A stretch of 64,000 nt of DNA from Robertmurraya dakarensis (GTDB lineage Bacteria; Bacillota; Bacilli; Bacillales; Cytobacillaceae): NCBI RefSeq assembly GCF_900156875.1, contig NZ_LT707409.1, positions 1,332,961 through 1,396,960 on the forward strand, written 5' to 3'. Position 1 is the first letter of the stretch; the number at the start of each line of letters is the position of its first letter. Below, piece after piece: positions 15,484 through 49,348 of the stretch. Below the pieces are notes generated by a model. The model was not told the DNA's origin. It saw only the letters and a list, made by a program, of their open reading frames with translations, and did no database searches. A program made the translations under genes and the position numbers.

Positions 15484-15513
15484 CTAATGTAAAATAGGCA
15501 AATTTTATATTAG
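15484..15513. promoter_or_regulatory. Putative LysR operator palindrome, copy 3 (upstream of SBP1)
   Basis: Arms CTAATGTAAAATA and AATTTTATATTAG are separated by four bases. The core and spacing match the sites at 21551, 38324, 41771 and 49319. It lies about 315 bases before the SBP1 start, just past the terminator that ends the importer operon. The surrounding 574-base gap holds no gene. Confidence 0.65.
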
Positions 15514-15614
15514 ATATAACGAAGATTAATATATTAATGATGATTTAAATAGTATATATGTTTTTTCTTATTCATAGCTAAGCATTTTCATTACCAATTG
15601 CAACAGAATCCTAG

Positions 15615-15673
15615 TTAAAAAACACCCATTAAGATGAAACAGATTGTTCTAAATCTGTCTACCTTAATGGGTG
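15615..15673 (-). terminator. Strong terminator after SBP2 at the end of the ABC importer operon
   Basis: Arms CACCCATTAAG and CTTAATGGGTG form a perfect 11-bp outer stem with an inner AGATT/AATCT stem. On the minus strand it is followed by six T. Confidence 0.85.
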
Positions 15674-15743
15674 CATATCAATTAAGTCTAGGTACTATTG
15701 CTATTTTTTTATAATGGATTTCCTTATGACGCTGATTAGCTCC

Positions 15744-17357
15744 TTATTTTATATCGTAGTTTTCATCAATTTGATAAAAATAGGTTAATGATCCTTTAAA
15801 GCCATTGGGACCCAAGTCAACATTACTAGTACGAATTAGAGGGGAGACCGTATCTGCTAAAGGTACTACAACATAATCATCCTTAATTTTCTCTTGAATC
15901 TCCCGATATAAATTCATTGCTGTTTTTGTATCAGGTGCATATCGAGCTTTTTCAATTAAATCATCTACTTTATCATAATGTGCAAAATTTAATGCACCAG
16001 TTGGTTTTGTAACTATAGATGGCCCATAGAAGAATTCCGTTAAAGGTACGTCTACATGCGGAACACGAGTATACGGATAAAAGATTAATTGATTCATGTC
16101 ATCACGGATATTAGAGTGCATCGTTGCGTTATCAACTGCTTCGATTGGCATCTCAATTCCTACTGCTCTTAACTGCTCTTGAACAAAAACAGCCTTATCC
16201 ATATAATTTGAAGTATTACTTACAAACTGAGGATCCAATTGTAGTCCGTTCTCATAGCCTGCTTCAGCCAATAGTTGCTTGGATTTTTCCGGATCAAACT
16301 CATGGATACCTACATCTGCTGAACCAAAGTATCCACTGATAATCGGTCCTTTTGGTACTGCACCTAATTTATCACCAAGCTGTGATTGAACCATTGTTTC
16401 AACATCTATCGCATGCGCAATTGCCTGTCTAACGAGAATATTATCTAATGGAGGCTTAGAGGTATTCATATACATCGAGTAGAACGTCGGTGGCTGACGA
16501 TAATCTATGACCACTTTATCGCTTTTTTCCCGATTTTCTACCCATAGTTTATCGGAAACACCCGCAGCCAAATGAATCTCTCCTCTATCTTGCGCAACAT
16601 CAATAGCGGTCTGGTCTCTAAATACTTGAACTCTAATTTTATCTAATTTTGGGACCCCTCTAAAATATTCCTCGTTTTTTACTAGAGTAGCACCTTCTTG
16701 TGGTTTATAGCTTTCGAGTACAAATGGTCCAGTTCCAACCGGAGAGTGTTTAAAGTTATCACCTGCATCTTCTATAGCTTGCTTATTCGTAATTAAGCCA
16801 CCATGGAAATTCACGACTTTTAACAAAAATGCAGAATCAGCTCTTTCAAGATTAAAAACAACGGTATAATCATCAGGAGTTTCGATGCTTATTACATTAT
16901 TAAAATCATTTCTCCATGATGATCCTGTTTCCTCATCCATAATTCGTTCGAATGACCATTTCACATCCTCTGATGTTAATTCTCCATATCCCTTATGCCA
17001 TTGAACCCCTTCTCTAAGATAAAAAGTCCACACTGTACTATCATCATTTGTTTCCCAAGACTCTGCGAGATCTGGTTCAATGTTATTAACATCTACTGTT
17101 CCAGGTGGGAAACGGACCAACCCATTAAAGATTGACATGGTGATAGCTAAGTCAGGGTAAGTAGCAGCCCAAGCTGGGTCTAGAGAATCTGGTTCCCCAT
17201 AGATAGCAACACTTAATACTTTTTCACCACCCTGGCTCTTTTCGTTAGGATCCTCATTTGTATCTACAGATGTAGATGAATTCGGTGAACATGCAGCCAA
17301 TAATAGCACAATAAAAGAAATACAAATTAACACGGTTCCCAGTCGGCTTCGAAACAC
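15744..17357 (-). CDS. ABC transporter solute-binding lipoprotein, family 5, SBP2
   Basis: A 537-residue lipoprotein with signal peptide and lipobox LLAAC. It shares with SBP1 the block WHKGYGELTSEDVKWSFERI, the TGPFVLESYK segment and the C-terminal REIQEKIKDDYVVVPLADT region, all typical of Opp/Dpp binding proteins. It is the last gene of the importer operon, 106 bases after the second ATPase, and so probably is the cognate receptor. It starts at a GTG behind the site AGGAGGG. The ligand cannot be told from the sequence. Confidence 0.87.
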   Translation of the reverse strand: MFRSRLGTVLICISFIVLLLAACSPNSSTSVDTNEDPNEKSQGGEKVLSVAIYGEPDSLDPAWAATYPDLAITMSIFNGLVRFPPGTVDVNNIEPDLAESWETNDDSTVWTFYLREGVQWHKGYGELTSEDVKWSFERIMDEETGSSWRNDFNNVISIETPDDYTVVFNLERADSAFLLKVVNFHGGLITNKQAIEDAGDNFKHSPVGTGPFVLESYKPQEGATLVKNEEYFRGVPKLDKIRVQVFRDQTAIDVAQDRGEIHLAAGVSDKLWVENREKSDKVVIDYRQPPTFYSMYMNTSKPPLDNILVRQAIAHAIDVETMVQSQLGDKLGAVPKGPIISGYFGSADVGIHEFDPEKSKQLLAEAGYENGLQLDPQFVSNTSNYMDKAVFVQEQLRAVGIEMPIEAVDNATMHSNIRDDMNQLIFYPYTRVPHVDVPLTEFFYGPSIVTKPTGALNFAHYDKVDDLIEKARYAPDTKTAMNLYREIQEKIKDDYVVVPLADTVSPLIRTSNVDLGPNGFKGSLTYFYQIDENYDIK

Positions 17358-17463
17358 GATTATCCCTCCTAAATTTATAGGTGTTTTTTTAGCAATTTGT
17401 GTTTAATATTATTCTTTGTATCACCACTTTCCTAATCGATCTAGGCTCATGAATAATAGAAAT

Positions 17464-18465
17464 CTATATTTCATTTACATAGAAACATGCCGTTTTATGG
17501 GTTTCAGAAATAGATGTAAAATCAGGGTAAGAATTTTCACATTGCTCTTTCTTATATGGACATCTCGTATGAAAATAACAACCATTCGGTGGATTTCTCG
17601 GACTTGGAACATCGCCGTTTAAGATAATTCTATCTTGTTTATTGTCGATATCCGGATTGGCAATCGGTATTGAAGATAATAAAGCCTTTGTATATGGATG
17701 TTTCGGATTATTAAAAAGTTCCGTTTTGGATCCCATTTCAACTATCCTGCCTAAATACATGACAGCTACTCGGTCGCTAATATGATGAACAACGCTTAAA
17801 TCGTGAGAAATAAAAATATAGGTTAATTGAAACTCTTGTTGTAAATCCTTTAATAGATTTAATATTTGTGATTGTATTGATACATCAAGCGCTGAAACAG
17901 GTTCATCACAAATAATTAATTCTGGGTTTACTGCTAAAGCCCTTGCGATTCCAATTCTTTGTCTCTGTCCACCCGAAAATTCATGAGGGTATCTATCCAA
18001 ATATTTTGGACTTAGTCCTACAATTTCCATTAAATTAGTAAGCTTTTTTTCAAGCTCTGCCCCTTTTGCAATTCGGAAATTAACCAATGGTTCGCTAATG
18101 CTTTCTCGGATTGTATGTTTTGGATTTAATGAACTATATGGATCTTGAAAGATCATTTGTATATTACGTCGTAGATCTAATAATTCTTTACCATGGCTAC
18201 TAGTAATATTCTTATTATTCAAAACAATACTTCCTGACGTAGGATCTTCTATCCTTACTAAGCACTTTCCGGTAGTGCTTTTTCCGCAGCCAGACTCACC
18301 AACAATACTAAATGTCTCACCTTTTTTAACTGTAAATGAGATATCATCTACTGCGTTGATAGAGCCAGTCACTCCACCAAAAATCCCCTCACGTATAAAA
18401 TAATATTTTTTCAATCCGTTAACTTGTAATAGTACATCGGATGTTTCTAATGTGGATGCCAACAT
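17464..18465 (-). CDS. Oligopeptide/dipeptide-type ABC importer ATPase (OppF/DppF-like)
   Basis: A 333-residue ATP-binding subunit. Walker A is GESGCGKSTT near residue 56, the ABC signature is FSGGQRQR near 164, and Walker B is LIICDEPVSALD near 180. The C-terminal oligopeptide-transporter extension has PPNGCYFHTRCPYKKEQC, whose cysteines commonly hold an iron-sulfur cluster in this class. It pairs with the neighbouring OppD-like ATPase to power uptake. Its ATG start lies 19 bases inside the end of that gene, indicating translational coupling. Confidence 0.92.
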   Translation of the reverse strand: MLASTLETSDVLLQVNGLKKYYFIREGIFGGVTGSINAVDDISFTVKKGETFSIVGESGCGKSTTGKCLVRIEDPTSGSIVLNNKNITSSHGKELLDLRRNIQMIFQDPYSSLNPKHTIRESISEPLVNFRIAKGAELEKKLTNLMEIVGLSPKYLDRYPHEFSGGQRQRIGIARALAVNPELIICDEPVSALDVSIQSQILNLLKDLQQEFQLTYIFISHDLSVVHHISDRVAVMYLGRIVEMGSKTELFNNPKHPYTKALLSSIPIANPDIDNKQDRIILNGDVPSPRNPPNGCYFHTRCPYKKEQCENSYPDFTSISETHKTACFYVNEI

Positions 18466-19412
18466 CGCACACTCCTTCCGCCACTAGTTAGCTCTATTCC
18501 AGGCTTGCTGTCTTTACAATGGTTGGTTGCCAGTTCACATCTAGGGTGGAATCTGCATCCAGATGGCATACTATTTAGATCTGGGACATTCCCTTTTATT
18601 AAATTTAACCTTTCTAAAGGTTTTCCTATAATAGGTATTGAATCTAATAACCCCTTTGTATATGGGTGTCTTGGATGATGAAATATCTCTTTAACTCTTC
18701 CCTCCTCAACAACCTCACCAGCGTACATAACAATAATACGGTCGCACGTCTCTGCAACTACCCCCAAATCATGTGTAATCATTAAAATCGTCATTCCAAA
18801 TTCTTGTTGAAGCTCTTTTAGGAGATCAATGATTTGAGCCTGTATTGTCACATCTAGGGCGGTTGTAGGTTCATCAGCCAGTATGATTTTAGGATTACAA
18901 GCCAGCGCCATTGCAATCATAACCCTTTGCCTCATTCCTCCCGATAACTGATATGGATAAGCTGATAGTTTTTCTTCAGGGTCAGAAACTCTTACTTTAG
19001 TCAATAGTTCTATTGATCGTTTTTTTATCTCGCTTTTTGAAAATCTAGTATGACATTTAAATACTTCGGCTAGCTGGTTTCCAATCGTAAAACTTGGGTT
19101 AAGTGATGACATGGGTTCTTGAAAAATCATTGCAATATCTTTCCCACGGATTCTATTTAATTCCTTTTCTGATAATTTAGTAAGGTCCTTTCCTTCATAT
19201 TTTATTTCACCGGAAATAAGTTTTGTTGCTGGTATTGGCAATAATCCCATGATGGATAGTGCTGTCAGACTTTTTCCGCAACCACTTTCTCCAACAATAG
19301 CTACAGTTTCATTTCGATTTACATAGAGATTGATATCGTTTAATATTTTGATATCATCCTCTGAAGCACCCGTTCCTACATTTAAATTCTTAACCTCTAA
19401 CAATGCTTCCAC
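18447..19412 (-). CDS. Oligopeptide/dipeptide-type ABC importer ATPase (OppD/DppD-like)
   Basis: A 321-residue ATP-binding subunit with Walker A GESGCGKSLT near residue 40, signature LSGGMRQR near 157 and Walker B ILADEPTTALD near 174. The C-terminal motif MPSGCRFHPRCELATNHC is the cysteine-bearing extension seen in OppD/DppD. It forms the heterodimeric motor with the OppF-like subunit. The start is a GTG behind the site AAGGGGGAAGG. It follows the second permease gene by 18 bases in the operon. Confidence 0.92.
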   Translation of the reverse strand: MEALLEVKNLNVGTGASEDDIKILNDINLYVNRNETVAIVGESGCGKSLTALSIMGLLPIPATKLISGEIKYEGKDLTKLSEKELNRIRGKDIAMIFQEPMSSLNPSFTIGNQLAEVFKCHTRFSKSEIKKRSIELLTKVRVSDPEEKLSAYPYQLSGGMRQRVMIAMALACNPKIILADEPTTALDVTIQAQIIDLLKELQQEFGMTILMITHDLGVVAETCDRIIVMYAGEVVEEGRVKEIFHHPRHPYTKGLLDSIPIIGKPLERLNLIKGNVPDLNSMPSGCRFHPRCELATNHCKDSKPGIELTSGGRSVRCWHPH

Positions 19413-19430
19413 AAATCCTTCCCCCTTCTT

Positions 19431-20327
19431 CTATTTACGTTGGCGCTTCAAGTGAGGATCAATGGAGTCTCGCAAACTATCACCAACCAAATTAAAGGCA
19501 ATAACCACTATCATTAAAGCGAAACCAGGGAACAGAACAAGGAATGGATTAATCGTCATGAAATTTAATCCATCTTTAATGATATTTCCCCAAGTTGGCG
19601 TGGGGGGTTGTACTCCCAAACCTAGAAAGCTTAGAGTTGCTTCTATTCGAATTGCTGCTGCCATATTGAGTGATGCTACAACCAAGACTGCTCCTAATAT
19701 ATTGGGTAATATATGTTTGAAAATAATTTTAATCGGCCCACTTCCACTAACAATAGCTGCTTTCACAAATTCACTGTTTTTCAAACTCATCGTTGGACCT
19801 CTAGATATTCTTGCAATACCAGGAATTAGTCCTATGCTTAAAGCAATAATTAAAGTGCTGACGTTCGACCCAAGAGCCACTAAGAGCATCATACCTAGAA
19901 GTAATAAAGGTAAAGCCATGATCGATTCAATAATTCTCATCAGGATTTCATCAACCCATCCACCTATATATCCTGCTAGAAGTCCAATCGTTGTTCCAAT
20001 AACAGCGCTGATCGTAACTGCAGCAAACCCTACAAATAAAGATGTTTGAGAGCCATAAATAATACGACTAAGCATATCTCGCCCCATCGTATCCGTACCT
20101 AACCAATGCTCAGCAGACGGTGGAGCAGCACGATTGATTGGATCCTGTACCATCGGTTCATAGGGTGAAATAATTGGTGCAAGTATGGCAATTAGTGTGA
20201 AAATCACTAAAATGTATAAGCCAATCATCCCTGGTTTATTACTTTTGAAAACTTTCCACGCATTCGTATCATCCTTTTTAGTAGCTGCACAATCTATTTG
20301 CGTATCTATTTGAGGTGATGTCTCCAT
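19431..20327 (-). CDS. ABC importer permease (OppC/DppC-like)
   Basis: A 298-residue membrane protein with an N-terminal cytoplasmic stretch, a first transmembrane segment at about residues 34-55, and five more after residue 95. The segment APPSAEHWLGTDTMGRDMLS is a hallmark of OppC/DppC proteins, and the EAA loop that contacts the ATPases appears as SGSGPIKIIFKHILPN. It forms the translocation pore with the OppB-like permease. Start ATG with a GGGAGT site. Confidence 0.92.
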   Translation of the reverse strand: METSPQIDTQIDCAATKKDDTNAWKVFKSNKPGMIGLYILVIFTLIAILAPIISPYEPMVQDPINRAAPPSAEHWLGTDTMGRDMLSRIIYGSQTSLFVGFAAVTISAVIGTTIGLLAGYIGGWVDEILMRIIESIMALPLLLLGMMLLVALGSNVSTLIIALSIGLIPGIARISRGPTMSLKNSEFVKAAIVSGSGPIKIIFKHILPNILGAVLVVASLNMAAAIRIEATLSFLGLGVQPPTPTWGNIIKDGLNFMTINPFLVLFPGFALMIVVIAFNLVGDSLRDSIDPHLKRQRK

Positions 20328-20429
20328 TAATGAATGACTCCCTTCTTAATAAGCTTGTATTCTACTAGTGCTTTAAAAGTAAAACAGCCCTAAAGTTAAT
20401 AAAGTTTGTTTTCATTAAGCGAAAAAGCA

Positions 20430-21368
20430 CTAATCCCTAAAGCGAATTCTTGGGTTGATATATGAATAACTAATGTCAACTAGTAAGTTCACTATCACAA
20501 CTAGTACACAAAATAGGATTAAACAGCCTTGTAATGTTGGATAATCTCGTGTAATAATCGCTTCAATTGCTAAACTTCCAAGACCTGGACGACTAAAAAT
20601 GGACTCCGTAATGACGGCACCACTGATTAGAGTGGTTATATTTAAGCCAATTACGGTAACTACAGGTATTAGGCTATTCCTGACAATATGTTTTAACACA
20701 ACCTTTTTCCTCGGAAGACCCTTTGCCCTTGCGGTTCTGACATAATCGTTATTGATTTCTTCTAACATTCCAGAACGCGTCATCCTCATGACGATAGCAG
20801 ATTCAATTAACCCCAATGTCAGCGCAGGTAATACTAGATGATAAAGTCCGTTAACAAATCCTTCACCAGCACCCATCGAAGGAAACATAGGGATCTTTAA
20901 TGCAAATGTGAGGAGAATGATAATTGCCAGGAAAAATGCCGGCATAGAAATACCGATAAGTCCAACAATTCTAAAGACATGGTCAGTTATCGTATTACGT
21001 TTAAGTGCAGTAATAATGCCAATTGGGATGCCAATCAAGGAGCAAGTGAGGATTGCCGCAAAGGTCAATTCTAAGGTATATGGGAAAAAGGTTAAAAGTT
21101 GTTCCGTTACCGGAATATTTGTTGTCAGAGAATTTCCAAAATCCAGCTTAATTAAATCACCTAGGTAGTTTACATACTGTTGCCATATTGGCAGGTCTAG
21201 TCCTAACTGCTCTCTTAGCTTTTGAAGGGATTGTTCAGTTGCCGTTTCACCTAGTATTACCTGTGCGGGATCCCCTGGAAGTCCCCTTAAAATGATAAAA
21301 ATAATGGAGACCGTGATAAAAATAGTTGGTATTGATAACAAAATCCTACGAATGGTGTAATTAAGCAA
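20430..21368 (-). CDS. ABC importer permease (OppB/DppB-like)
   Basis: A 312-residue membrane protein with six predicted transmembrane helices. The family signature GLPGDPA appears near residue 29, and the ATPase-contact EAA loop as RTARAKGLPRKKVVLKHIVR near 205. It is the first gene of the importer operon and begins with TTG behind GGAGAGGAGAG. The upstream 245 bases, shared with the divergent lysR gene, contain the putative operator and a cre-like site. Confidence 0.92.
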   Translation of the reverse strand: MLNYTIRRILLSIPTIFITVSIIFIILRGLPGDPAQVILGETATEQSLQKLREQLGLDLPIWQQYVNYLGDLIKLDFGNSLTTNIPVTEQLLTFFPYTLELTFAAILTCSLIGIPIGIITALKRNTITDHVFRIVGLIGISMPAFFLAIIILLTFALKIPMFPSMGAGEGFVNGLYHLVLPALTLGLIESAIVMRMTRSGMLEEINNDYVRTARAKGLPRKKVVLKHIVRNSLIPVVTVIGLNITTLISGAVITESIFSRPGLGSLAIEAIITRDYPTLQGCLILFCVLVVIVNLLVDISYSYINPRIRFRD

Positions 21369-21479: not shown

Positions 21480-21526
21480 AATTAGGATTCCTTCTTAATT
21501 TTCCGAAAGTACTTAATATTCGGATA

Positions 21527-21555
21527 TTTATATCTAACCATATTGCCTGTATAAT
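21527..21555 (+). promoter_or_regulatory. Candidate sigma-A promoter of the frameshifted lysR gene
   Basis: A perfect -10 TATAAT lies 17 bases after a weak -35 TTTATA. The -10 overlaps the left arm of the putative operator, which would fit autorepression. Confidence 0.5.
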
Positions 21556-21580
21556 GTAAAATAAGGATATTTTATATTAT
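21551..21580. promoter_or_regulatory. Putative LysR operator palindrome, copy 1 (between lysR1 and the ABC operon)
   Basis: Arms ATAATGTAAAATA and TATTTTATATTAT are complementary at 12 of 13 positions around AGGA. It is the best copy of five and sits 33 bases before lysR1. Confidence 0.75.
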
Positions 21581-21612
21581 CATTAAAATCTTGAATACAA
21601 GGAGATACATAA

Positions 21613-22516
21613 ATGAGAAATTGACCAATTTTATTTTTTAATAGAAGTAGAAAAATTTGGATCTATCTCTTTAGCTGCTGAACATCTACATGTATCGCAA
21701 CCTACCATAAGTCAGGCCATAAACGCTTTGGAGATAGAACTAGGTAAGAAAATATTTTATCGTTCACGGGTTGGTACACGGCCCACTGAAGATGGCAAAG
21801 AGATCATCCTGAAAGCTAAAGAAATCCTCAACAAGGTGGAAGAGCTAAAAGAAAGCTCTAATCTTAAGTCGGAAAAGTTAACTGGCACTCTATCGATTTC
21901 AAGCGTACCCGGTATTTGTACAAGCTTACTTCCAAAAACAATAGTAGACTATAAAAATAGATTCCCCGGGATTTCTATTAAAATTTTTGAAAACGGCACT
22001 CCTCAAATTATCGAGGATATTACAACAGAAAAACATCATCTTGGCTTTGTCGCTTTTACGGATAAGGGCTACTTTAAAGAGCATACAGAATTATTTTATA
22101 AAGAATTAGCTGATTGTAAGGTAATGGTCTGTGTTGGCCGGAAATCACCCCTATCCGCTAAGAACAGTATTACTTTAGAAGAAATTATTAAAGAGCCGAT
22201 CGTACCATTCAAGCCAGGCTATCAGATGTATCTAGGCATTTTGGAATTACTTCGCAAATATGGGCAACCTAATATTCTTTATAGTTCTACAAATTCTATA
22301 ATGGGTAAACAAATTATGGCGGAGGGGATAGGTGTAGGCTTCTGTTCAGGATTAACGATAAAAAATGATCCGTTTTTTACATCTGGTAAACTTATTGCAA
22401 TTCCAATTTCAAATGCAGATATCAAACTTTCTTATGGATATATAAGGTTAAAAAAAAGACATTTGTCAACTGCTGCCAAGGAGTTTTTAAGAGTTGTTGG
22501 AGATAATTTAATATAA
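21613..22516 (+). pseudogene. LysR family transcriptional regulator with a frameshift in codon 3 (lysR1)
   Basis: From the ATG the frame meets TGA at codon 4. Removing one A from the AAA at 21618-21620 restores MRIDQFYFLIEVEKFGS, which matches the start of the paralogue at 41831, and gives a 300-residue LysR protein. The winged-helix part (SLAAEHLHVSQPTISQAINA) and effector domain are otherwise intact. The ribosome site AAGGAGATACATAA fits the lost start. In the coding frame a TGA at 21614 blocks any earlier start; the only candidates are a rare ATT at 21620 or a TTG at 21728 that would remove the DNA-binding helix. It is probably inactive, unless this is a sequencing error. The divergent ABC operon would be its target. 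Confidence 0.75.
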
Positions 22517-35657: not shown

Positions 35658-35715
35658 TTTTTCTCCATCCAGTTTAGTTATTTCAAACAATTTAGTTCAC
35701 TTGAAACACACTTCC

Positions 35716-37284: not shown

Positions 37285-37312
37285 TTCGTTACCTCCTTTA
37301 CTCTTATAGTTT

Positions 37313-38323: not shown

Positions 38324-38353
38324 CAGTTGTAAAATACAAACATTTTATACTGT
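38324..38353. promoter_or_regulatory. Putative LysR operator palindrome, copy 4 (upstream of the S2 operon)
   Basis: Arms CAGTTGTAAAATA and CATTTTATACTGT flank CAAA. Core and spacing match the other four sites. It lies in a 316-base gap that holds no gene. Confidence 0.6.
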
Positions 38354-38382
38354 CATTAATTTTCATAATACAAATTGCTATA

Positions 38383-39575: not shown

Positions 39576-39590
39576 ATTAATCCTCACTTT

Positions 39591-40019
39591 TTAATTTGAT
39601 TGATTTATAGAAAATCGAAGATCTACAATTTCTCTTCCGTCCTCATCCCGTCCTACCGAAGAAAGTGTCGAATAGACCGTTTGACCGATTGATAATTGTT
39701 TTTCATCTGTCACATCTAATAATCCCCTAATGACAACACCAGCGTCTAAAACAATGGTAGCAACAATATAGGGTGCTGGTAAATCTTTTCTTTGACTTCG
39801 ATGGACGGTGGCAAATTCTCTAATTTTCCCTCTCCCACTCATTTCAATATTTTCAATATCATCGCCAAATCTTCCGCATGATTCACACCCGAAATACTGC
39901 CTTGGGAAAAAGACATACCCACATTTACATTGACATCCTTTTAGTGACGGTCTATCCGGAAGTTCTTCTGTCCCTCTAATAGAAAACACAGATGGTCGCA
40001 GTGCAATTTGATCTATCAT
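39591..40019 (-). CDS. DUF35/OB-fold zinc-ribbon protein D1, partner of T1
   Basis: A 142-residue protein with an N-terminal cysteine-rich ribbon (GCQCKCGYVFFPRQYFGCESC; shown shortened as CQCKCG...CESC, about residues 29-48) and a C-terminal OB-fold (GKIREFATVHRS through VIRGLLD). DUF35 proteins form complexes with thiolase-fold enzymes and appear to position acyl-CoA. The gene precedes T1 by 15 bases, so the two products very likely form a complex. The first metal-binding pair has an unusual CxCxC arrangement in place of CxxC. Start ATG behind AAAGGAG. Confidence 0.85.
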   Translation of the reverse strand: MIDQIALRPSVFSIRGTEELPDRPSLKGCQCKCGYVFFPRQYFGCESCGRFGDDIENIEMSGRGKIREFATVHRSQRKDLPAPYIVATIVLDAGVVIRGLLDVTDEKQLSIGQTVYSTLSSVGRDEDGREIVDLRFSINQSN

Positions 40020-40080
40020 CGCTTAATCTCCTTTAATTATTTTATTAATCACTGATTCTTACTCTCTTCACCCTAGATCT

Positions 40081-40851
40081 CTACTTTCCACTCCAGATTG
40101 GTTTCCTCTTTTCAGCAAAAGCCTTTAGTCCTTCTTTGCGATCTTCAGAATCTAATGCTGGTTGTGCGATAACCTTTTGTTTCTCCCATGCCTCTTCTTC
40201 TGTCCACTCGTAAGCATGGCGGATAATCTCTTTTGTTGCAATTTGTGCAGTTGGGCCATTTACTATTAGACGTTCTGCTAATTCAATAGCTGTTTGTAGT
40301 GCCTGACCTGGCTCTGTTAATCTATTAACAACACCAAAGCGATGGAAGTGCTCAGCTGGAAGCATATCTGCAGTAAGGGCAAGTTCCATTACCAAGTGAT
40401 ATGGCATACGCTTTGGCAAACGGAATAAACCACCTCCAACAGCAACTAAATTGTGGCGAACTTCCGGAAGCCCCATCTTGGCGTTATTAGCAGCCACAAT
40501 CAAATCACAGGATAAAGCAAGTTCCATTCCACCAGCCACAGCATAACCTTCAATTGCTGCAATAATCGGCTTTCTTGGTGGCTTGGCCATGATCCCGAAA
40601 CCACCGCGTGGTGTACTTCGGTCCTCACCTCTTGCGGCTGCTTTTAAATCGGCACCCGCAGAGAATGTACCACCTGCTCCAGTAATGATCGCGACAAATA
40701 AATTTTCATCCTCTTCAAATGCATCAATCGCCTGACACATTTGCATACCTGTAGCTCCATCACAGGCATTTTTAACCTCAGGGCGATTGATTGTAATGAT
40801 AAATATTTTCCCTCGTTTTTCTGTCAAGACTAAATTTCCTCGGTTTTCCAT
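40081..40851 (-). CDS. Enoyl-CoA hydratase/crotonase E3
   Basis: A 256-residue crotonase, nearly collinear with E1 and E4. FSAGADLKAAARG and AVAGGMELAL form the oxyanion hole; hydratase glutamates are present in GGMELAL and LPEVRHN. Expected reaction: hydration of a 2-enoyl-CoA formed by one of the acyl-CoA dehydrogenases. Start ATG behind AAAGGAGGG. It lies between SDR S3 and D1, forming a hydrate, oxidise and cleave cassette with S3 and T1. Confidence 0.91.
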   Translation of the reverse strand: MENRGNLVLTEKRGKIFIITINRPEVKNACDGATGMQMCQAIDAFEEDENLFVAIITGAGGTFSAGADLKAAARGEDRSTPRGGFGIMAKPPRKPIIAAIEGYAVAGGMELALSCDLIVAANNAKMGLPEVRHNLVAVGGGLFRLPKRMPYHLVMELALTADMLPAEHFHRFGVVNRLTEPGQALQTAIELAERLIVNGPTAQIATKEIIRHAYEWTEEEAWEKQKVIAQPALDSEDRKEGLKAFAEKRKPIWSGK

Positions 40852-40884
40852 CTGATTACCCTCCTTTATTACTCCCTAACGACA

Positions 40885-41688
40885 CTACTGATTGAAAGAA
40901 TAGCCCCCATTGACTGGATATGTTTGTCCTGTCATCCATCCTGATGCCTCTGAAGCAAGGAATAACACCATATTGGCTACATCGGACGGTTGACCCAAAC
41001 GACGGATGACATAATTTTTCAACACCTTTCGCATGCGTTCTTCATCGTCCATCCGTCCTTCTAGTCTAGGTGTCATCGTTGCAGCGATCGCCACTGAGTT
41101 TGCGGTTATGTTATATCTTCCTAATGATTTCGCTAATGCGCGCATAAGACCACTAGCACCCGCTTTTGCTGCCGAGTATACAGGTAAATGCGGTTCTCCT
41201 ACCCTTCCTGCATCAGAGATGACCGTAATGATTCTTCCGCCATTTCCCTGTTGAATCATTTCAGGAATCGCAGCTCGAGAACAATTTAATACTCCCATTA
41301 AATTGACTCCAATCCAGCCATCCCAAGTTTTTGGATCAGATTCCCAAAATGGAACACCCATTTGTACTGAATCTGGATTAGCGCCAGCATTCCCAGCGTT
41401 ATTTACGAGAATATCAACAGATTTACCAAAATAATCAATTGAAGCCTGAATCATTTTCTCCACACTTGTATAATCAGTAACATCTGCTTGGATCGGAATG
41501 GCGTTACCACCCTGTTGGTTAATCTCCTTCGCAACTGCCTCTGCTCTTTCTAAATGGTAATCATTCACAACTACCCCTTTTGCATGATTTGCAGCAAAAT
41601 GTAAGGCAATCTGTCTGCCTACTCCTTGACCGGCACCTGTAATTAGAGCTACTCTGTCCTTTAATTCTAATAAGTTAGCTAAATATAT
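40885..41688 (-). CDS. SDR family oxidoreductase S3, start codon lost or non-canonical
   Basis: The reading frame is open up to a TAG just above 41700 and encodes a full SDR: LITGAGQGVG with the cofactor glycines, NNAGNAG, SDAGRVG, VYSAAKAG and the WMTGQTYPVNGG end shared with S2 and S4. Yet there is no ATG, GTG or TTG ahead of the cofactor motif. The first usable start, GTG at 41568, would remove that motif. A ribosome site (GAGAGGAG) sits where a start near 41688 would be expected, and ATA lies there. So either a rare start is used or the gene is inactivated by a start lesion. The end given is this inferred ATA start. Confidence 0.65.
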   Translation of the reverse strand: MYLANLLELKDRVALITGAGQGVGRQIALHFAANHAKGVVVNDYHLERAEAVAKEINQQGGNAIPIQADVTDYTSVEKMIQASIDYFGKSVDILVNNAGNAGANPDSVQMGVPFWESDPKTWDGWIGVNLMGVLNCSRAAIPEMIQQGNGGRIITVISDAGRVGEPHLPVYSAAKAGASGLMRALAKSLGRYNITANSVAIAATMTPRLEGRMDDEERMRKVLKNYVIRRLGQPSDVANMVLFLASEASGWMTGQTYPVNGGYSFNQ

Positions 41689-41747
41689 CTTGCTCCTCTC
41701 TCTATAAAACTATCGTTCAGAATATAATAAATATTTTAAATATTTAT

Positions 41748-41775
41748 TTGAATTTTATCGTATCTTATATATAAT
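41748..41775 (+). promoter_or_regulatory. Sigma-A promoter of lysR2
   Basis: -35 TTGAAT and -10 TATAAT are spaced by 16 bases. The -10 overlaps the left arm of the operator, as in lysR1. Confidence 0.6.
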
Positions 41776-41800
41776 GTAAAATATATATATTTTATATATC
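41771..41800. promoter_or_regulatory. Putative LysR operator palindrome, copy 2 (between lysR2 and S3)
   Basis: Arms ATAATGTAAAATA and TATTTTATATATC flank TATA. The left arm is identical to copy 1. It is shared by the divergent lysR2 and S3-E3-D1-T1 units. Confidence 0.7.
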
Positions 41801-41830
41801 TATTAGAATTCTTTATATGTGGGGGGTTAT

Positions 41831-42793
41831 ATGCGAATAGATCAATTGATTTACCTTGTAGAAGTGTCAAAATATAAGTCTATTTCTTTGGCTGCAGAAA
41901 ATCTTCATATTACCCAGCCAACTATAAGTCAAGCTCTAAACGCGCTTGAAGCCGAATTAGATGTAAAACTTTTTCATCGTTCTCGAATCGGTACCATTCC
42001 CACAGATGACGGTAAGATAATCATAAAAAAAGCAATCGAGATCCTTGAAAAAGTAAATGAAATCAGTGAATTCTCCGGAGATCATTCAAAATTATTATCA
42101 GGTACACTCTCAATAGCCTCTGTTCCTAGTTTTAGTATGCATATCCTTTCAAGTTCGATTGCATCCTTCACTAATACCTATCAAGGTGTTACACTCAATG
42201 TCTTTGAGGATATTAGTTCGGTTATTAAAGAGGAAGTAAGGGCCGAAAGAGTAAATCTAGGTTTCATTGCGAGAGAGAACCAACGTCAATTCGATGAACA
42301 TGATTTATATTTTGAAAAGCTAATAGAAGGACATGTTATGGCCTGTGTTGGCAGAAAGTCACCTTTAGCATCTAAGTCAACAATATCTTATAAAGAAATT
42401 GCCAAAAATCCAATCGTATCTTTTAAGAGCAAATCACCCTTTTTCAAAAAAATCATGAGTATTCTATCTAAGTATAGAGAACCTAGTATTCTTTTTAATT
42501 CTGGCATTACAAACGAAGGAACAGGTAAGCAAATTCTTTCAGAGGGTGTAGGAGTTGGCTTTGTTTCAAGTATTGCCATAAAAAATGATCCCTATTTTAT
42601 GACAAACAAGCTGATTGCCATACCTATTTCAGAAAAACCGATAGAAATTGCTTATGGCTACGTTAGCTTAAAATCTCGACAATTGACTCCTGCCGCAAAA
42701 GAATACCTAAGATTATTAAGAAAAAATTTAATCGCAAAGAAGGACTTAGAAAATAACTACATTACAATATTTGAAAATGAAGAGATTGGTTAG
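41831..42793 (+). CDS. LysR family transcriptional regulator (lysR2, intact)
   Basis: A 320-residue LTTR. The winged helix-turn-helix is at residues 1-60 (MRIDQLIYLVEV, SLAAENLHITQPTISQALNA), followed by the linker helix and a two-lobed effector domain that ends near residue 300. It is a close paralogue of the frameshifted lysR1 and reads intact where that gene is broken. ATG follows the site GTGGGGGG. It is the only intact regulator gene in the cluster and lies in its middle, divergent from S3-E3-D1-T1, so it is the likely pathway regulator; the inducer is probably an acid or CoA ester of the pathway. Confidence 0.93.
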   Translation: MRIDQLIYLVEVSKYKSISLAAENLHITQPTISQALNALEAELDVKLFHRSRIGTIPTDDGKIIIKKAIEILEKVNEISEFSGDHSKLLSGTLSIASVPSFSMHILSSSIASFTNTYQGVTLNVFEDISSVIKEEVRAERVNLGFIARENQRQFDEHDLYFEKLIEGHVMACVGRKSPLASKSTISYKEIAKNPIVSFKSKSPFFKKIMSILSKYREPSILFNSGITNEGTGKQILSEGVGVGFVSSIAIKNDPYFMTNKLIAIPISEKPIEIAYGYVSLKSRQLTPAAKEYLRLLRKNLIAKKDLENNYITIFENEEIG

Positions 42794-42932: not shown

Positions 42933-43892
42933 TTACCCCATAATTATATTCATGCGGGAGAGTGTAGATTTTGCATCATCAATTATCTGTTCTATTACTT
43001 CCTTAACAGTAGGTACATCATGAATGAGACCTACAGATGATCCACATGACCAAACTCCAGCGTCTAGATTACCGTTAGTAAATACTTCTATTGCTCGTTC
43101 CCCTTTTATCAGCGGAAGCAGTTCTTCTACTGTCGCTCCCCGGCTTTCCAACTCCAAAACCTTCTGTGAAACTTCATTCTTTGCCACTCGCGTGGTTGAA
43201 CCAATTGTTCTTTGAATCAAGAAAGTATCTAGTTCTGAAGCTCCTACCATCCATTGTTTAACGTTTTCATGGAGCAGAGATTCCTGTGTTGCCATAAATC
43301 TAGATGCCATTAAAACCCCTTCAGCACCAAGTGACAAAGCAGCAGCCATTCCTCGTCCATCAGCAATTCCCCCACCAGCAATGACAGGTATGTTTACTGA
43401 ATCCACTGTCTGTGGGATAAGAACTAGACCGCCAACGTCCATTCCAGGATGTCCTCCGGCTTCAGTACCGATTATGATTACTGCATCTGCACCAAGTCTT
43501 TCAGCTGTTTTTGCATAACGAACGGCGGGTACCTTATGGATGACGGTAACATCATTATCTTTTAGGACTTTCATATATTTTCCAGGGTTATCTCCGGCCG
43601 TTTCGACAATCCGAATTCCTTCATCTAATAAAACCTCAATAAACTCGTCATTAGGAAGTTTTTTTCTAGGTGATACAATTAGATTGACACCTATTGGTTT
43701 CTTGGTTAACCTTTTTGCCAGACGTATATCCTCACGAAGATCCTCAGGAGTTTCATAGTGTGCTGACGTGATAAAACCAATTCCACCAGCTTCGGCCACC
43801 GCTGCTACTAATGGAGCACGACCAACTCGAAACATCCCGCCACAAAGGATTGGGTATTCAATATTTAATAATTCCGTAATACGAGTTTTCAA
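42933..43892 (-). CDS. Nitronate monooxygenase-like FMN protein N1
   Basis: A 319-residue TIM-barrel flavoprotein of the NMO/2-nitropropane dioxygenase/FabK family. The FMN phosphate loops are IAGGGIADGRGM and GVLMASRFMAT, and the active-site His is in GTEAGGHPG. Members include nitronate oxidases, enoyl reductases and flavin-dependent steps on ring-derived CoA esters. Being last in an operon of acyl-CoA genes, a CoA-ester redox role is more likely than nitroalkane detoxification, but this is inference. TTG start behind AAGGAGG. Confidence 0.85.
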   Translation of the reverse strand: MKTRITELLNIEYPILCGGMFRVGRAPLVAAVAEAGGIGFITSAHYETPEDLREDIRLAKRLTKKPIGVNLIVSPRKKLPNDEFIEVLLDEGIRIVETAGDNPGKYMKVLKDNDVTVIHKVPAVRYAKTAERLGADAVIIIGTEAGGHPGMDVGGLVLIPQTVDSVNIPVIAGGGIADGRGMAAALSLGAEGVLMASRFMATQESLLHENVKQWMVGASELDTFLIQRTIGSTTRVAKNEVSQKVLELESRGATVEELLPLIKGERAIEVFTNGNLDAGVWSCGSSVGLIHDVPTVKEVIEQIIDDAKSTLSRMNIIMG

Positions 43893-43939
43893 ACCTTTTC
43901 CTCCTTAGGAAATTCTCACTCTCACAAAGAACCACCCTG

Positions 43940-45091
43940 TTATCTAAAAGCGCTTTTTCCGGTAAGTTCACGCCCGATTACCAGCTTCTGTATTTGACTC
44001 GTTCCTTCTGGTATCGTTAAAATTTTTGCATTCCTAAATAATCGTTCAACAGGGAATTCAGATGTTAATCCATAAGCACCATGAATTTGAATGGCTTTTG
44101 AAGTAACTCGAACAGCCATTTCTGTTGCAAATTGTTTTGCCATTGAAGTCTCTATTCGGCAATGTTGCCCTTTGTTCACCATATCTAATGCTCGATAGGT
44201 TAGTAGTTTCGATGCATCAATTTCAGTTTTCATATCAGCTAACATTCCTTGAATTAATTGAAAAGAGCCAATCTTTTTGCCGAATTGTTCTCTTTCTTTT
44301 ACATATTGTATTGAATAATTTAGCGCTTTTTCAGCTAATGCATTGGCATCTGTTGCAACAAAGCAACGCCATGCATGAAACCCTTTCAATTTGCTCTTAT
44401 AGCCATCACCCTCTGGAACAATCAGATTTTCCTTTGGTACGCGGACATTATCAAAGTAAAGTTCTGCTAAATCCCCTTGATTAAAGCCCATTAAGTTGAT
44501 TTTTCTTGACTCGATAGGTGTATCTTCTCTATCAATAAGGATTAAGCCAATTCCTTTTCCACCCTTGGAACGATCAAATGAAACAGCAACAGATATATAA
44601 TCTGCTAGATTTCCATTCGTAATAAATGTTTTCGTCCCATTTATCACATAATGATCACCATCTAATACAGCCGTTGTTTGCATCTCAGAAGGATTGGATC
44701 CAACATTGGGCTCTGTATTTGCTGAGCAAGCAATTTTATCACCTGATAAAAGTCCTGGTAGGAATTTTTCTTTATGGTAATCCGTTCCGCGTTCAGCAAT
44801 TGTCCTCGCCATATTTGGTGAGATTCCTAAATATCCTTTTAATTCATATGGCAATTCTTCATATATTAGTGCCCACGTTTTAATATCTAAGCCAGCCCCA
44901 CCCTGCTCTTCTGGAATGGTTGTTCCTAAAAATCCAAATGGCTTAACTTCTTTAAACATTCTTAAGACAAACTCTTTTGAAAACGGCTGATCATCGCCTA
45001 GTTCTTTAATAGCAGGTTCTAAAACCTCCCTTGTTAGTTTTCTTATTGTTTTCTTTAACATCAATTCTTCATCTGTAAATTCAAAATTCAT
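43940..45091 (-). CDS. Acyl-CoA dehydrogenase A3
   Basis: A 383-residue FAD enzyme of the A3-A7 subgroup. FAD-contact loop SANTEPNVGSN (with Asn where most family members have Asp), KKIGSFQLIQGMLADMKTE, and catalytic Glu in IPEGTSQIQKL near the end. It follows ligase L2 by 54 bases and precedes N1. Together with A4 it provides two dehydrogenases in one operon, perhaps for successive desaturations or as a heteromeric pair. ATG start behind GAGGAGG. Confidence 0.92.
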   Translation of the reverse strand: MNFEFTDEELMLKKTIRKLTREVLEPAIKELGDDQPFSKEFVLRMFKEVKPFGFLGTTIPEEQGGAGLDIKTWALIYEELPYELKGYLGISPNMARTIAERGTDYHKEKFLPGLLSGDKIACSANTEPNVGSNPSEMQTTAVLDGDHYVINGTKTFITNGNLADYISVAVSFDRSKGGKGIGLILIDREDTPIESRKINLMGFNQGDLAELYFDNVRVPKENLIVPEGDGYKSKLKGFHAWRCFVATDANALAEKALNYSIQYVKEREQFGKKIGSFQLIQGMLADMKTEIDASKLLTYRALDMVNKGQHCRIETSMAKQFATEMAVRVTSKAIQIHGAYGLTSEFPVERLFRNAKILTIPEGTSQIQKLVIGRELTGKSAFR

Positions 45092-45145
45092 TATAGATAG
45101 CCTCCTCTAGAAATGCCTAATCAAAAGTTACCTTTACTAGGTGTA

Positions 45146-46714
45146 TCAAACATTTCTTTCCTTTTCTTTCCAATACGCTTTGCGCAAATCGTTTTTAGTT
45201 ATCTTCCCAACCGTATTTCTAGGTAGCTCATCTACGAATTCGATCGAACGAGGCCGTTTATAAGAAGCTAGCTGACTTCTACAGTACTCGATCAATTCTT
45301 CTTCTGTTACCGTCACATTTTTATTAATTTCACAAAAAGCTTTTATTTGTTCTCCAAACTCTTCATCTGGAATCCCAATCACTGCTACATCCTGTACAGC
45401 TGGATGTTTTTGTAAGACAGCTTCAATTTCAGCTGGGTAAATATTGACACCACCAGAGATAATCATATCCTTGATCCGATCATTGATATAAAGATAACCA
45501 TCCTCATCAAGATAGCCCATATCTCCCGTTTGGAAAAAACCGTTCTCATCTAATGTATCAGGTCCTAGTTTCTCCTTATTTAAATATCTGTCGATACAGA
45601 CAGGTGTTTTCACCCAAATAACACCTACTTCGCCGGTGTTCAACTTTTGTCCATTCTCATCTCGAATTTCAACTTGAACATGCTTGTAGGGATAACCGCA
45701 AGATCCTGCTTTTGATCTCTGTAGTTCTGGCTGCAAAATCGTAACTAATCCCGCCTCAGAAGAACCATATCCTTCATACACACAATGTTCTCCAAAATAG
45801 TTCATCGCCCATTCTTTTAATGAATATGGTACAGGAGCTGCCCCTACTGTAAGAGTCTTTATAGAGCTCACATCATACTTCTTTAATACCTCTTCAGGTA
45901 GTTGGGCAATCCGTTTTAGTAGTGTAGGGACACAAGTCCATCTCGTTATTTTGTGTTTCATTATTAATTCCAACGTTTTCTCTGGATCAAACTTTTTAAG
46001 AAGTACTACAGTTCCCCCACTCTTATGTGTGATTTCAGCATTGTAAGGTCCCAATCCGTGGTGGAGAGGCGTGTTGACGAGGGAAATATTACCCGTCTTC
46101 ATAAAACCTGATGCATCTAACATATCTTGTTGATATTCAAGTAATACCTTTAGATTTTGTTTCATCGCCTTTGCTGGGTCCTTAAAGACACCTTTTGGAT
46201 GACCAGTTGTACCTGAGGTGTATATGATTAATTCCGGTTTCACAACTTTACTAATTCGCGCTTCGACTTCTCTTTCAGAAATCAAATTTTCATACTGTTC
46301 AACCTCTGGATGAGGGTTAGTGTTGATGCCAACCATTGTTTTTAATGGGAGCTCATCCCATAAAGGTAATAGCACATCAGGTGTAGGATCATCAAAAACA
46401 ACTGCAGTAGCCCCACTATCCTTCATAACATGAAGAATTTCTGGTAATGTAAAATGCCAATTGAGCCCAATTTGCATACAGCCAACCTTGGCTAAGGCAC
46501 GATTGACCACAAACCATTCCTTGCGAATTTGTGATCGTACGGCCACAATATCTTTGGGGCGAAGTCCAGCACGGACAAAACTATCCGCTAGCAGGTCTGA
46601 TTGCCGATTCCATTCCTTCCATGTTAATTCAGATCCATTTTCATCTATAATAGCCGTTTCATCAGGCTTAATTTGAGCCCAATATTCCAAGCTTCCTTGA
46701 ATAGGTTGAGTCAT
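45146..46714 (-). CDS. Acyl-CoA ligase L2
   Basis: A 522-residue adenylate-forming ligase collinear with L1. Key segments: YTSGTTGHPKGVFKDP, GYGSSEAG, GDMGYLDEDGYLYINDR and the lysine-bearing TVGKITKN. Its ATG overlaps the stop codon of C2 as ATGA, and its site AAAAGGAG lies within C2, so the two are translationally coupled. This links acid activation directly with the racemase-like C2, which acts on the CoA thioester. Substrate unknown. Confidence 0.92.
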   Translation of the reverse strand: MTQPIQGSLEYWAQIKPDETAIIDENGSELTWKEWNRQSDLLADSFVRAGLRPKDIVAVRSQIRKEWFVVNRALAKVGCMQIGLNWHFTLPEILHVMKDSGATAVVFDDPTPDVLLPLWDELPLKTMVGINTNPHPEVEQYENLISEREVEARISKVVKPELIIYTSGTTGHPKGVFKDPAKAMKQNLKVLLEYQQDMLDASGFMKTGNISLVNTPLHHGLGPYNAEITHKSGGTVVLLKKFDPEKTLELIMKHKITRWTCVPTLLKRIAQLPEEVLKKYDVSSIKTLTVGAAPVPYSLKEWAMNYFGEHCVYEGYGSSEAGLVTILQPELQRSKAGSCGYPYKHVQVEIRDENGQKLNTGEVGVIWVKTPVCIDRYLNKEKLGPDTLDENGFFQTGDMGYLDEDGYLYINDRIKDMIISGGVNIYPAEIEAVLQKHPAVQDVAVIGIPDEEFGEQIKAFCEINKNVTVTEEELIEYCRSQLASYKRPRSIEFVDELPRNTVGKITKNDLRKAYWKEKERNV

Positions 46715-47835
46715 GTATTCTTCACTCCTTTTAAATTTTTTGAATATTCCGAATTATTCTCTCCTAATTTGGCAGCTTCCTTTGGGGATTGGACTGATAA
46801 ATTTTCAAACTTGACGGGATATTTAACAAAATATTCACCTTCACCCGTTCCGTAATTTTCAAATAAATCTCTTTCGATGAAGCTTTCAACTTGAGGAAGC
46901 TCCCCGATTTCATTAACCTTACAACTAGGTACATCATTTTTATCAAAGATCTCTAACCATTCAGCTAATGGTTTCTTCAATAATTCCTCTTCAATAATTG
47001 GATTTAAAGTCTTTGCATTTTGGGAACGCAAGGGCCATGTTTTATATTTCTCTTCATTTAACAGTTCAGTTCTGCCAATCGAATGACACAAGTTTTCAAA
47101 AAAGTGGTCCTCAAGGCTTCCTAACGCAATATACTCATGGTCCTTTGTTTCAAAAGCTCCGTATGCTCCTGTAGTAAGAAAGTTTTCTTTATTAGGTTTT
47201 CCTTGATCATAGTATGATGCAATCCGTGGGCCCATCCATGCTAAAACGGTATCTGTAATCGAAACGTCTATAAAATCCCCTTGTCCGTTAAGATCTCGAT
47301 TTCTCAACGCTGCCAGTATAGACGTAACTGCATACATAGCTGACGTTAAATCCGCTACTTGAACACCTCCCCATGGCGCTGGTGGACCTGCAGGATCTCC
47401 ACTAATACTTAAAGCACCAGAAAGAGCCAAGTAATTGACATCATGTCCAGGAACTGTTCTTAATGGTCCCGTTTGACCAAATCCTGAAATCGAACAGTAA
47501 ATAATTTGGTTATTAATTTTCGACACTTCTTGGTAATCTAACCCTAACCTTGCCATTACACCAGGTCTGAACCCTTCAACAAGCACATCGCACTCTTTTA
47601 TCATTTGCTTAATAAATTCTATTTCCTGTTCATCCTTTAAATCTACTGTAATACTTTTTTTGTTCCTATTGACTGCATTAAACATTCGCTTGTTTCTTCT
47701 TGTAAAATCACCTGTATGTGGACGTTCTACTTTGATTATCTCCGCTCCAAAATCAGCTAAAGTCATTGTACAAAAAGGACCCGGTAGCAAATTAGAAAAA
47801 TCTAGAATTTTAATTCCTTCTAATGGTAGAGTCAT
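46711..47835 (-). CDS. CaiB/BaiF family protein C2, resembling alpha-methylacyl-CoA racemase
   Basis: A 374-residue family III protein. Signatures at the N-terminus are KILDFSNLLPGPFCTMTLAD and AEIIKVERP. The segment PGHDVNYLALSGAL contains the His followed by Asp that act as base in alpha-methylacyl-CoA racemases (GHDINYLAL there), and VADLTSAM holds a candidate second acid. CoA-transferases of the family (as C1) have GLD at this point. So I favour epimerisation of a 2-methylacyl-CoA, which would prepare an R-acid for a stereospecific dehydrogenase. A CoA-transferase role is not excluded. Between A4 and L2. Confidence 0.8.
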   Translation of the reverse strand: MTLPLEGIKILDFSNLLPGPFCTMTLADFGAEIIKVERPHTGDFTRRNKRMFNAVNRNKKSITVDLKDEQEIEFIKQMIKECDVLVEGFRPGVMARLGLDYQEVSKINNQIIYCSISGFGQTGPLRTVPGHDVNYLALSGALSISGDPAGPPAPWGGVQVADLTSAMYAVTSILAALRNRDLNGQGDFIDVSITDTVLAWMGPRIASYYDQGKPNKENFLTTGAYGAFETKDHEYIALGSLEDHFFENLCHSIGRTELLNEEKYKTWPLRSQNAKTLNPIIEEELLKKPLAEWLEIFDKNDVPSCKVNEIGELPQVESFIERDLFENYGTGEGEYFVKYPVKFENLSVQSPKEAAKLGENNSEYSKNLKGVKNT

Positions 47836-47898
47836 ATGAACACCTCTTCATTTTTTTATTACAAGAAAGAAAACGTATTTTGTTTGCTAATGTACTAG

Positions 47899-49050
47899 TT
47901 ATCTGAAAGCGTTCATCCCAGTCAGTTCACGTCCAATAATAAGTTTTTGTATCTGTGTAGTACCCTCGGGAATTGCCAATATCCTTGCCTGTCTAAATAG
48001 GCGTTCAACTGGAAATTCCGAAGTAAGACCATATGCACCATGTATTTGTATGGCTTTAGACGTAACACGGATTGCCATTTCAGTTGCATAATGTTTCGCG
48101 ATTGACGTCTCAACTCGTGCGATTTGGCCTCTATTTACTAAATCCAATGCTCGATAGGTTAATAATCGTGCAGCATCTAGTTCCGTTTTCATATCTGCTA
48201 ACATTTCCTGAATCAGCTGAAACGAACCTATTTGTTTCCCAAACTGTTCTCTTTCTTGTGAATACTTAATGGAATATTCCAAAGCCTTTTCAGCAATACT
48301 GCATCCACTTAATCCAACAAAACAACGCCAAGCATGAAAACCACTCATTTGTGTTTTGTAACCCTGTCCTTCAGGAATTAGAAGATTTTCTTTCGGAACT
48401 CGTACATTATCGAAAAAAAGTTCAGCTAATTCGCCTGTATTAAATCCCATTAGTTTAATCGGTCTGGCTTCTACAGGAGATTCCTCTCGATCTACTAAAA
48501 TAATGCCTACTCCCTTACCACCTTTGGAACGATCAAACTGAACAGCTACAGAAATATAATCTGCAGTCATTCCATTTGTAATAAAAGTTTTTGTCCCATT
48601 TATCACATAATGATCTCCATCGATTGTGGCGGTAGTTTGAATTTCTGAAGGGTTAGATCCTACATTTGGTTCAGTATTTGCCGAACAGGCAATTTTATCA
48701 CCTGCGAGTAGACCCGGCAGAAACTTTTCCTTATGGTAATCGGTACCACGGTCATATATTCTTCTCGCCATATTAGCAGTTATGCCAGACATTGACTTCA
48801 GTTGATTTGGTAACTCTTCATACAGTAGTCCCCAAGTCATAAGATCAAGTCCTGCCCCTCCAGCCTCCTCTGGAATGGTTGTACCTACTAATCCAAATGG
48901 CTTAATTTTTTTTAACATACTTAGAAGGAATTCTTTAGTAAATGGCTTCTCATCACCTTGTTCCTCAATTGCTGGTTCTAACTCTTCTTTTACAAATTTC
49001 TTAATCGTTTTCTTAATCATTTGTTGTTCATCAGTAAAATCAAAATTCAT
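47899..49050 (-). CDS. Acyl-CoA dehydrogenase A4
   Basis: A 383-residue FAD enzyme very similar to A3 (SANTEPNVGSN, KQIGSFQLIQEMLADMKTE, catalytic Glu in IPEGTTQIQKL). It is the first gene of the A4-C2-L2-A3-N1 unit. Upstream lie 371 bases with no gene but with a cre-like sequence and a copy of the putative LysR operator, so it is probably subject to both pathway-specific and catabolite control. ATG behind AGGAGGC. Confidence 0.92.
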   Translation of the reverse strand: MNFDFTDEQQMIKKTIKKFVKEELEPAIEEQGDEKPFTKEFLLSMLKKIKPFGLVGTTIPEEAGGAGLDLMTWGLLYEELPNQLKSMSGITANMARRIYDRGTDYHKEKFLPGLLAGDKIACSANTEPNVGSNPSEIQTTATIDGDHYVINGTKTFITNGMTADYISVAVQFDRSKGGKGVGIILVDREESPVEARPIKLMGFNTGELAELFFDNVRVPKENLLIPEGQGYKTQMSGFHAWRCFVGLSGCSIAEKALEYSIKYSQEREQFGKQIGSFQLIQEMLADMKTELDAARLLTYRALDLVNRGQIARVETSIAKHYATEMAIRVTSKAIQIHGAYGLTSEFPVERLFRQARILAIPEGTTQIQKLIIGRELTGMNAFR

Positions 49051-49160
49051 AAATCATCTGCCTCCTATATAGCTCTAATTTATTTTCTCACCTATGATGG
49101 TGTATTTCATAAAGTTAAGAAAGACCATAGCAAATTCATTACCAAAAGTACCCCTTATCA

Positions 49161-49174
49161 TGAAGGCGTTTTCA
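49161..49174. promoter_or_regulatory. Candidate cre site (CcpA) upstream of A4
   Basis: TGAAGGCGTTTTCA is a near-perfect 14-mer for the CcpA consensus with one mismatch, about 110 bases before the A4 start. Confidence 0.45.
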
Positions 49175-49318
49175 AAATTATTTAAGAAACCCAATTGAGA
49201 GTTTGTTGAATTCTCTAATAATAGAGAAATATAAATACATCACGGCTTAATCAAAGTGGATAATTTTCAGAATATACAGTATATTAAATCACTACTAAAA
49301 TCTTATTTGATTTTTTGA

Positions 49319-49348
49319 TTTCTGTAAAATAGTAATTTTTTATATAGA
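49319..49348. promoter_or_regulatory. Putative LysR operator, copy 5 (upstream of A4), degenerate
   Basis: The left core TGTAAAATA is exact; the right core reads TTTTTTATA in place of TATTTTATA, with the same 4-base spacing. It lies about 270 bases before A4. Confidence 0.5.

Follow-up and report, generated by a model that had tools for sequence, protein, structure and literature searches.

In the LysR systems described in the available portions of four reports (PMC4834489, PMC5002191, PMC8514465, PMC6794564), a primary site at about −65 overlaps the promoter of the divergent regulator gene and a second site lies nearer to the target promoter. The LysR-type IR1/IR2/IR3 promoters of Gammaproteobacteria, such as those of OxyR, carry 15-bp ATAG-N7-CTAT boxes according to the accessible text of PMC5002191, which also warns that spuriously long motifs arise where binding sites lie next to promoters. 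In Bacillus, the accessible part of PMC8514465 describes the LysR regulator CcpC, with ATAA/TTAT boxes, a dyad at −66 and a second element at −27 to −33, and that of PMC6794564 describes the divergent gltC–gltA promoters of Bacillus subtilis, in which boxes I, II and III are bound by the LysR protein GltC. The lys box of PltR is given in the available portion of PMC3382589 as a LysR palindrome of 22 bp, located at −74 to −53, whose two arms of 9 bp are separated by a 4-bp gap. Within the portions of the literature covered by our search, no description was found of the LysR1/LysR2 regulator or of the cluster operator considered here.

In this study, a window of 64,000 nucleotides from Robertmurraya dakarensis (contig NZ_LT707409.1, positions 1,332,961 to 1,396,960) was analyzed, in which an initial annotation had proposed that five copies of a near-palindrome form one LysR operator linking uptake and catabolic operons. 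Five copies do exist, but their spacer is five bases and not four: TGTAAAATA-N5-WTTTTATA has exactly five exact matches in the window, all intergenic and all on the + strand, with starts four bases to the right of those first given (Table 1), whereas the N4 version has no exact match in the window. Two further copies with one mismatch, S6 and S7, lie 4.7 and 12.6 kb past the right edge of the window and bring the total to seven; elsewhere in the intergenic DNA of the window, nothing scores as high as the threshold of 13. The seven sites span 61 kb, have one orientation and each precede a minus-strand unit, in keeping with the earlier placement of the copies in intergenic regions ahead of cluster units; their predicted targets are three ABC uptake operons, one lone binding-protein gene (S1) and three catabolic units. 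The two sites said to lie between a lysR gene and a divergent operon were also found there, so that S2 and S4 are each common to a regulator gene and its divergent target operon. On the evidence below, we consider it likely that the seven sites are LysR-regulated promoters, each with a weak box I near −64, a box II near −43 on the −35 hexamer, a 17-bp spacer and a weak −10 hexamer.

Table 1. Sites and genes of the cluster (window positions except for S6 and S7); promoter coordinates (−35, −10 and start) are predicted from sequence.
Feature	Position	Strand	Description
SBP_bac_5 gene	13565..15169	-	after S1
S1	15488..15509	-	−35 15488-15493; box II 15494-15508; predicted −10 15465-15470; box I candidate 15516-15530
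Oligopeptide-type ABC operon	15744..21368	-	two permeases, two ATPases, SBP; after S2, divergent from lysR1
S2	21555..21576	-	−35 21555-21560; box II 21561-21575; predicted −10 21532-21537; box I candidate 21582-21596
lysR1 reading frame	21617..22516	+	51% identical to LysR2
SDR, acyl-CoA ligase and enoyl-CoA hydratase genes	34863..38110	-	after S3
S3	38328..38349	-	−35 38328-38333; box II 38334-38348; predicted −10 38305-38310; box I candidate 38355-38369
SDR, hydratase, OB-fold and thiolase genes	38427..41703	-	after S4, divergent from lysR2
S4	41775..41796	-	−35 41775-41780; box II 41781-41795; predicted −10 41752-41757; box I candidate 41802-41816
lysR2	41831..42793	+	HTH_1 and LysR substrate domain
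Two acyl-CoA dehydrogenases, CoA-transferase III, ligase and NMO-family gene	42933..49050	-	after S5
S5	49323..49344	-	−35 49323-49328; box II 49329-49343; predicted −10 49300-49305; box I candidate 49351-49365
S6	C11:1401686		right of window; ahead of second ABC operon
S7	C11:1409587		right of window; ahead of third ABC operon

Several other features of the cluster were noted. The SDR gene after S4 (window 41670-41703) has no ATG, GTG or TTG close to where its paralogue at 38110 would place the start, and short pieces of ligase, acyl-CoA dehydrogenase (without its N-terminal domain) and SDR genes occur at window 58216-58500 and 61630-62502 and at L065:10687-11175; these fragments suggest gene decay. 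A squalene-hopene cyclase gene lies directly beyond S7 (L065:17808-19685), and a TPP riboswitch precedes thiamine genes on the minus strand (window 10403-10535). Sequences resembling the CcpA cre consensus lie downstream of the S1 and S5 promoters (window 15343-15357 and 49161-49174), and such sequences are no more numerous in the window than expected by chance.

Read on the operon strand, the sites have the form TATAA(A)-N7/8-TATTTTAC(A/T). Each contains ATAA-N7-NTAT (T-N11-A, with a predicted center at −43) abutting a −35 hexamer TTTACA/T, followed after 17 bp by a −10 hexamer TWANAT. Among 150 flanking columns of the seven sites, only six are invariant, the sole ones at P<0.02, and four of these six fall in the −10 hexamer. 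In 23 unique homologue matches, for which the 22-bp element was the sole basis of selection, agreement with TATAAT is greatest at a spacing of exactly 17 bp (mean 3.78 of 6, compared with 1.6–3.0 at 26 other spacings) and is perfect at this spacing in five; the right-end TTTACA/T is therefore read as a sigma-A type −35. Sigma-54 enhancer-type regulation was rejected because no −24/−12 promoter was found near the five window sites, the few consensus matches being intragenic.

The fit to ATAG-N7-CTAT over the seven sites, scanned as the best of two adjacent gaps (170 offsets, average 23.4, s.d. 4.6), is highest inside the element, at 46 of 56, where it is centered at −43 with six or seven of eight positions matched per site; outside the element it is highest with a gap of 5–6 bp upstream (35 of 56, four to seven of eight per site). 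Box II thus lies 21–22 bp from box I, nearer to the −35 and on the same face of the DNA, which is the place of a second LysR box. Box I, AT(A/T)N-N7-N(A/T)AT, two turns upstream of box II, is degenerate in the cluster sites (−64/−65 from the predicted start) and weak in six of the seven (four or five of eight). In 22 aligned sites, a base-centered dyad at −64 scores 0.515 (maximum of 100 shuffled profiles, 0.439), and T-N11-A occurs at this position in 15 of the 22 compared with 2.9 expected, outside the stretch that was used to choose the sites. Higher scores in this alignment belong to dyads at −40.5 and −47, which lie within the element or overlap it; the −64 dyad is absent from the top eight dyads when the seven cluster sites are taken alone, and the box I signal requires the pooling of gaps 5 and 6. 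The gap of 5 (center −64) is second best in the homologues and best in the three sites of locus L148 together with four of the nine later loci described below, a panel of element-bearing loci only, in which a further peak at −23 may represent a third box. The 22 sites comprise the seven cluster sites and 15 of 26 homologue matches, chosen by the −51 to −30 element and by place and not by box I: near-duplicates (L086, L092, L106), matches in reading frames (L103, L104:12261, L114) and matches away from lysR (L079 twice, L084, L101, L112) were left out, while L083:15546 and L085 were kept despite their distance from lysR.

By analogy, this two-box layout matches the published LysR arrangement. 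The first two boxes of OxyR, with a gammaproteobacterial consensus, are centered at −66 and −44 in the accessible text of PMC5002191, compared with predicted centers of −64 and −43 here; relative to the IR1/IR2/IR3 promoters as described there, box II, on the −35, is the better kept box, no third box is established and the seven promoters share one layout. CcpC resembles the cluster regulators in its family and in its boxes and upstream dyad, but its second element, as given in the available part of PMC8514465, lies elsewhere than at the cluster sites, and LysR2 falls far below the CcpC cut-off (83 of 400 bits). The divergent promoters of GltC are likewise similar, whereas LysR2 is below the GltC cut-off (99.9 of 350 bits) and the target genes differ from those in the available part of PMC6794564. 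The PltR palindrome has the length of the cluster element; however, its gap differs and its location, in the portion of PMC3382589 at hand, is that of box I and not over the −35. None of the NCBIfam cut-offs for the named LysR families CidR, GltC, CcpC and AlsR was reached, the best being CidR with 136.7 against 415 bits.

In the mechanism proposed, LysR2 and/or its paralogue LysR1, presumably as a tetramer, would bind box I and box II, and the bound protein, in response to an inducer, would activate the operons for ABC uptake and for acyl-CoA catabolism. At the two sites shared with a divergent lysR gene (S2 and S4), protein bound in this way would lie over the start region of that gene and so repress it. 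Activation with autorepression appears to be the likeliest mode. Repression of the operons, in which a LysR protein on box II would block the −35 until released by an inducer, is unlikely but deserves consideration, since box II adjoins the −35 in all seven sites and repression of citB by CcpC proceeds from two LysR sites (PMC8514465, available part); however, boxes near −64 and −43 resemble the activation boxes of other LysR systems in the accessible portions of PMC5002191 and PMC4834489, and the −10 elements are weak, both of which speak against this mode.

The symmetry on which the initial annotation was based requires a different reading. The 22-bp element is the strongest dyad of the seven sites (0.778), is even-centered at −40.5 and retains the inner AAAAT in six of the seven cluster sites, as would suit an even-centered operator over the −35 for a TetR, GntR, MarR or Crp type regulator. 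We regard such a non-LysR operator as improbable: in elements from beyond the cluster, AT-N9/10-TAT-TTTAC is constant but the inner bases on the left are not, a LysR box fits within the element, and Pfam searches of 69 different proteins from the window and its right flank identified the two LysR proteins and no other regulator. For the first two of these reasons, the 22-bp palindrome was rejected as the most probable unit of recognition. From its sequence, the near-palindrome is best understood as a LysR box II joined to the −35 hexamer of a promoter, which explains the even-centered symmetry, LysR boxes being odd-centered, and it looks like the long motif that the available text of PMC5002191 warns of. 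The element first described is real, but its symmetry is probably not the unit of recognition.

As for the protein that binds, both LysR1 and LysR2 contain HTH_1 and LysR substrate-binding domains above the Pfam cut-offs, and the similarity of their DNA-binding helices noted at the outset holds, these being near-identical; the paralogues may therefore share sites. Upstream of the HTH, the lysR1 frame contains neither ATG nor GTG nor TTG, and the ATG nearest to its ribosome-binding site (window 21613-21640) leads into a frame that terminates three codons later, which may reflect a rare start codon, frame damage or a sequencing error. LysR2 is for this reason the safer candidate and the likeliest binder. 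An obvious ATG is likewise missing from the start of the LysR homologue of Bacillus sp. IITD106 (L171, ~3985–4001). In six other genomes of the genus, no relative of LysR2 above 28% identity was found, and the regulator is thus an accessory gene there; a scan of the genome contigs with LysR2 only also found no relative.

LysR2 homologues (E 1e-40) are present in 37 of 193 family genomes, including that of the window. Across 39 LysR regions, the element occurs in 15 of 54 gaps that bear a promoter and adjoin lysR, compared with six of 301 other such gaps (Fisher 2e-9; gaps of 40–700 bp, without L113, a fragment adjoining L089), where the rows are partly related and related species account for several of the 15; shuffled lysR-adjacent gaps gave a mean of 1.2 and a maximum of 4. 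In the five divergent cases scoring at least 13, the site is opposite to lysR and 12–37 bp from its start. Ten named loci at 31–42% identity were also considered, of which nine are independent, the tenth, Cytobacillus depressus, appearing to be genome G037, whose site it shares; L171 and L152 are likewise not independent, since both carry the same site. A right-oriented element that beats its shuffles (0, 2, 0 and 0 of 60) and has an adjacent box I was found in four of the nine. A score of 13 is reached by two of these, with 15.0 in Paenibacillus ginsengihumi and 17.7 in Sporosarcina obsidiansis. The other two, with 12.1 in Bacillus sp. IITD106 and 10.8 in Paenibacillus sp. 598K, stay under 13 but beat their shuffles and show box I clearly; the score of 9.4 in Alicyclobacillus sp. 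ALC3 is borderline. The element is absent from the four closest named homologues (Paenibacillus L164–L167, 40–42%) and from all five loci at 25–29% (L174–L178), and the family homologues L081 and L082 (~40%) are below the threshold.

In a genome of another family (G358, locus L148), three sites at 9073, 11817 and 15169 around a LysR homologue precede genes that by eye resemble those of a carboxyltransferase, a TRAP-type binding protein and a biotin carboxylase; one site has TATAAT at 18 bp. The three two-box sites are strong, and the locus is another candidate LysR regulon.

By a cruder measure, the flanks of unrelated LysR genes (4/50) and of homologues (7/58) are not distinguishable. Three of the four unrelated matches, at L012 and L035 (the same gene in two species) and at L008, are likewise followed after 17 bp by a −10-like hexamer. 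It follows that the signature is not exclusive to the LysR2 clade and is partly a general LysR-plus-promoter signature; judged on sequence, it may extend more widely than that clade. A composite two-box pattern gave 15 matches in 397 genomes against five for controls, with none in the genome of the window and two of the 15 directly adjoining lysR.

The genome-wide count called for by the initial annotation, which equal frequency elsewhere would have undermined, leaves its claim standing. In the genome of 5,481,671 bases, the exact N5 pattern occurs five times on the forward strand and never on the reverse, always inside the window, while the reversed-pattern control has no exact match on either strand of the 5.48-Mb genome. 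Among 192 other family genomes, seven have a single match, none has more than one and none of the seven matches lies beside lysR; the reversed control gave 15 single matches across 193 family genomes. The resulting background of about 0.04–0.08 per genome corresponds to a Poisson P for five in one genome of ∼5e-10 at the lower rate and ∼2e-8 at the higher. With at most one mismatch, TGTAAAAT-N6-ATTTTATA has nine places in the genome, seven of them within 61 kb; another, C11:3498455 (one mismatch), is inside an open frame that is recombinase-like by eye. A chance likeness among AT-rich promoters whose −35 regions resemble one another, without any specific regulator, is therefore very improbable, even though the motif is A/T-only, unrelated LysR flanks also score and, at up to three mismatches, whole-genome counts are no higher than those of the control (190+185 compared with 193+187). 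A wider regulon in the genome was rejected, since TWANAT at 17 bp was found in none of 26 loci (all 25 two-mismatch places and C11:729403) when the best-scoring match per locus, not always the listed place, was taken; the nearest was TAAACT at C11:729403.

The promoter set is real and cluster-confined, and it is probably LysR-controlled. LysR-linked control of the uptake and catabolic operons is well supported because the sites are rare, have one orientation, carry LysR-type boxes at the usual positions and recur beside some LysR homologues; of the single operator first proposed to link them, this much stands, while its spacer, number of sites and symmetry unit are revised. It is possible, though somewhat doubtful, that the cluster represents a Bacillales class of LysR promoter in which a box II fused to the −35 dominates and two paralogues share one operator in a seven-promoter, one-cluster regulon, perhaps under two-inducer control.

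A motif found by eye has thus become a testable promoter map, in which seven units are predicted to answer one signal. A LysR box adjoining a −35 can mimic a long palindrome, and the switch would be a new example of a well-known kind. For the organism, the set of sites marks how far an uncharacterized acyl-CoA catabolic pathway probably extends and provides a way of finding the substrate of that pathway.
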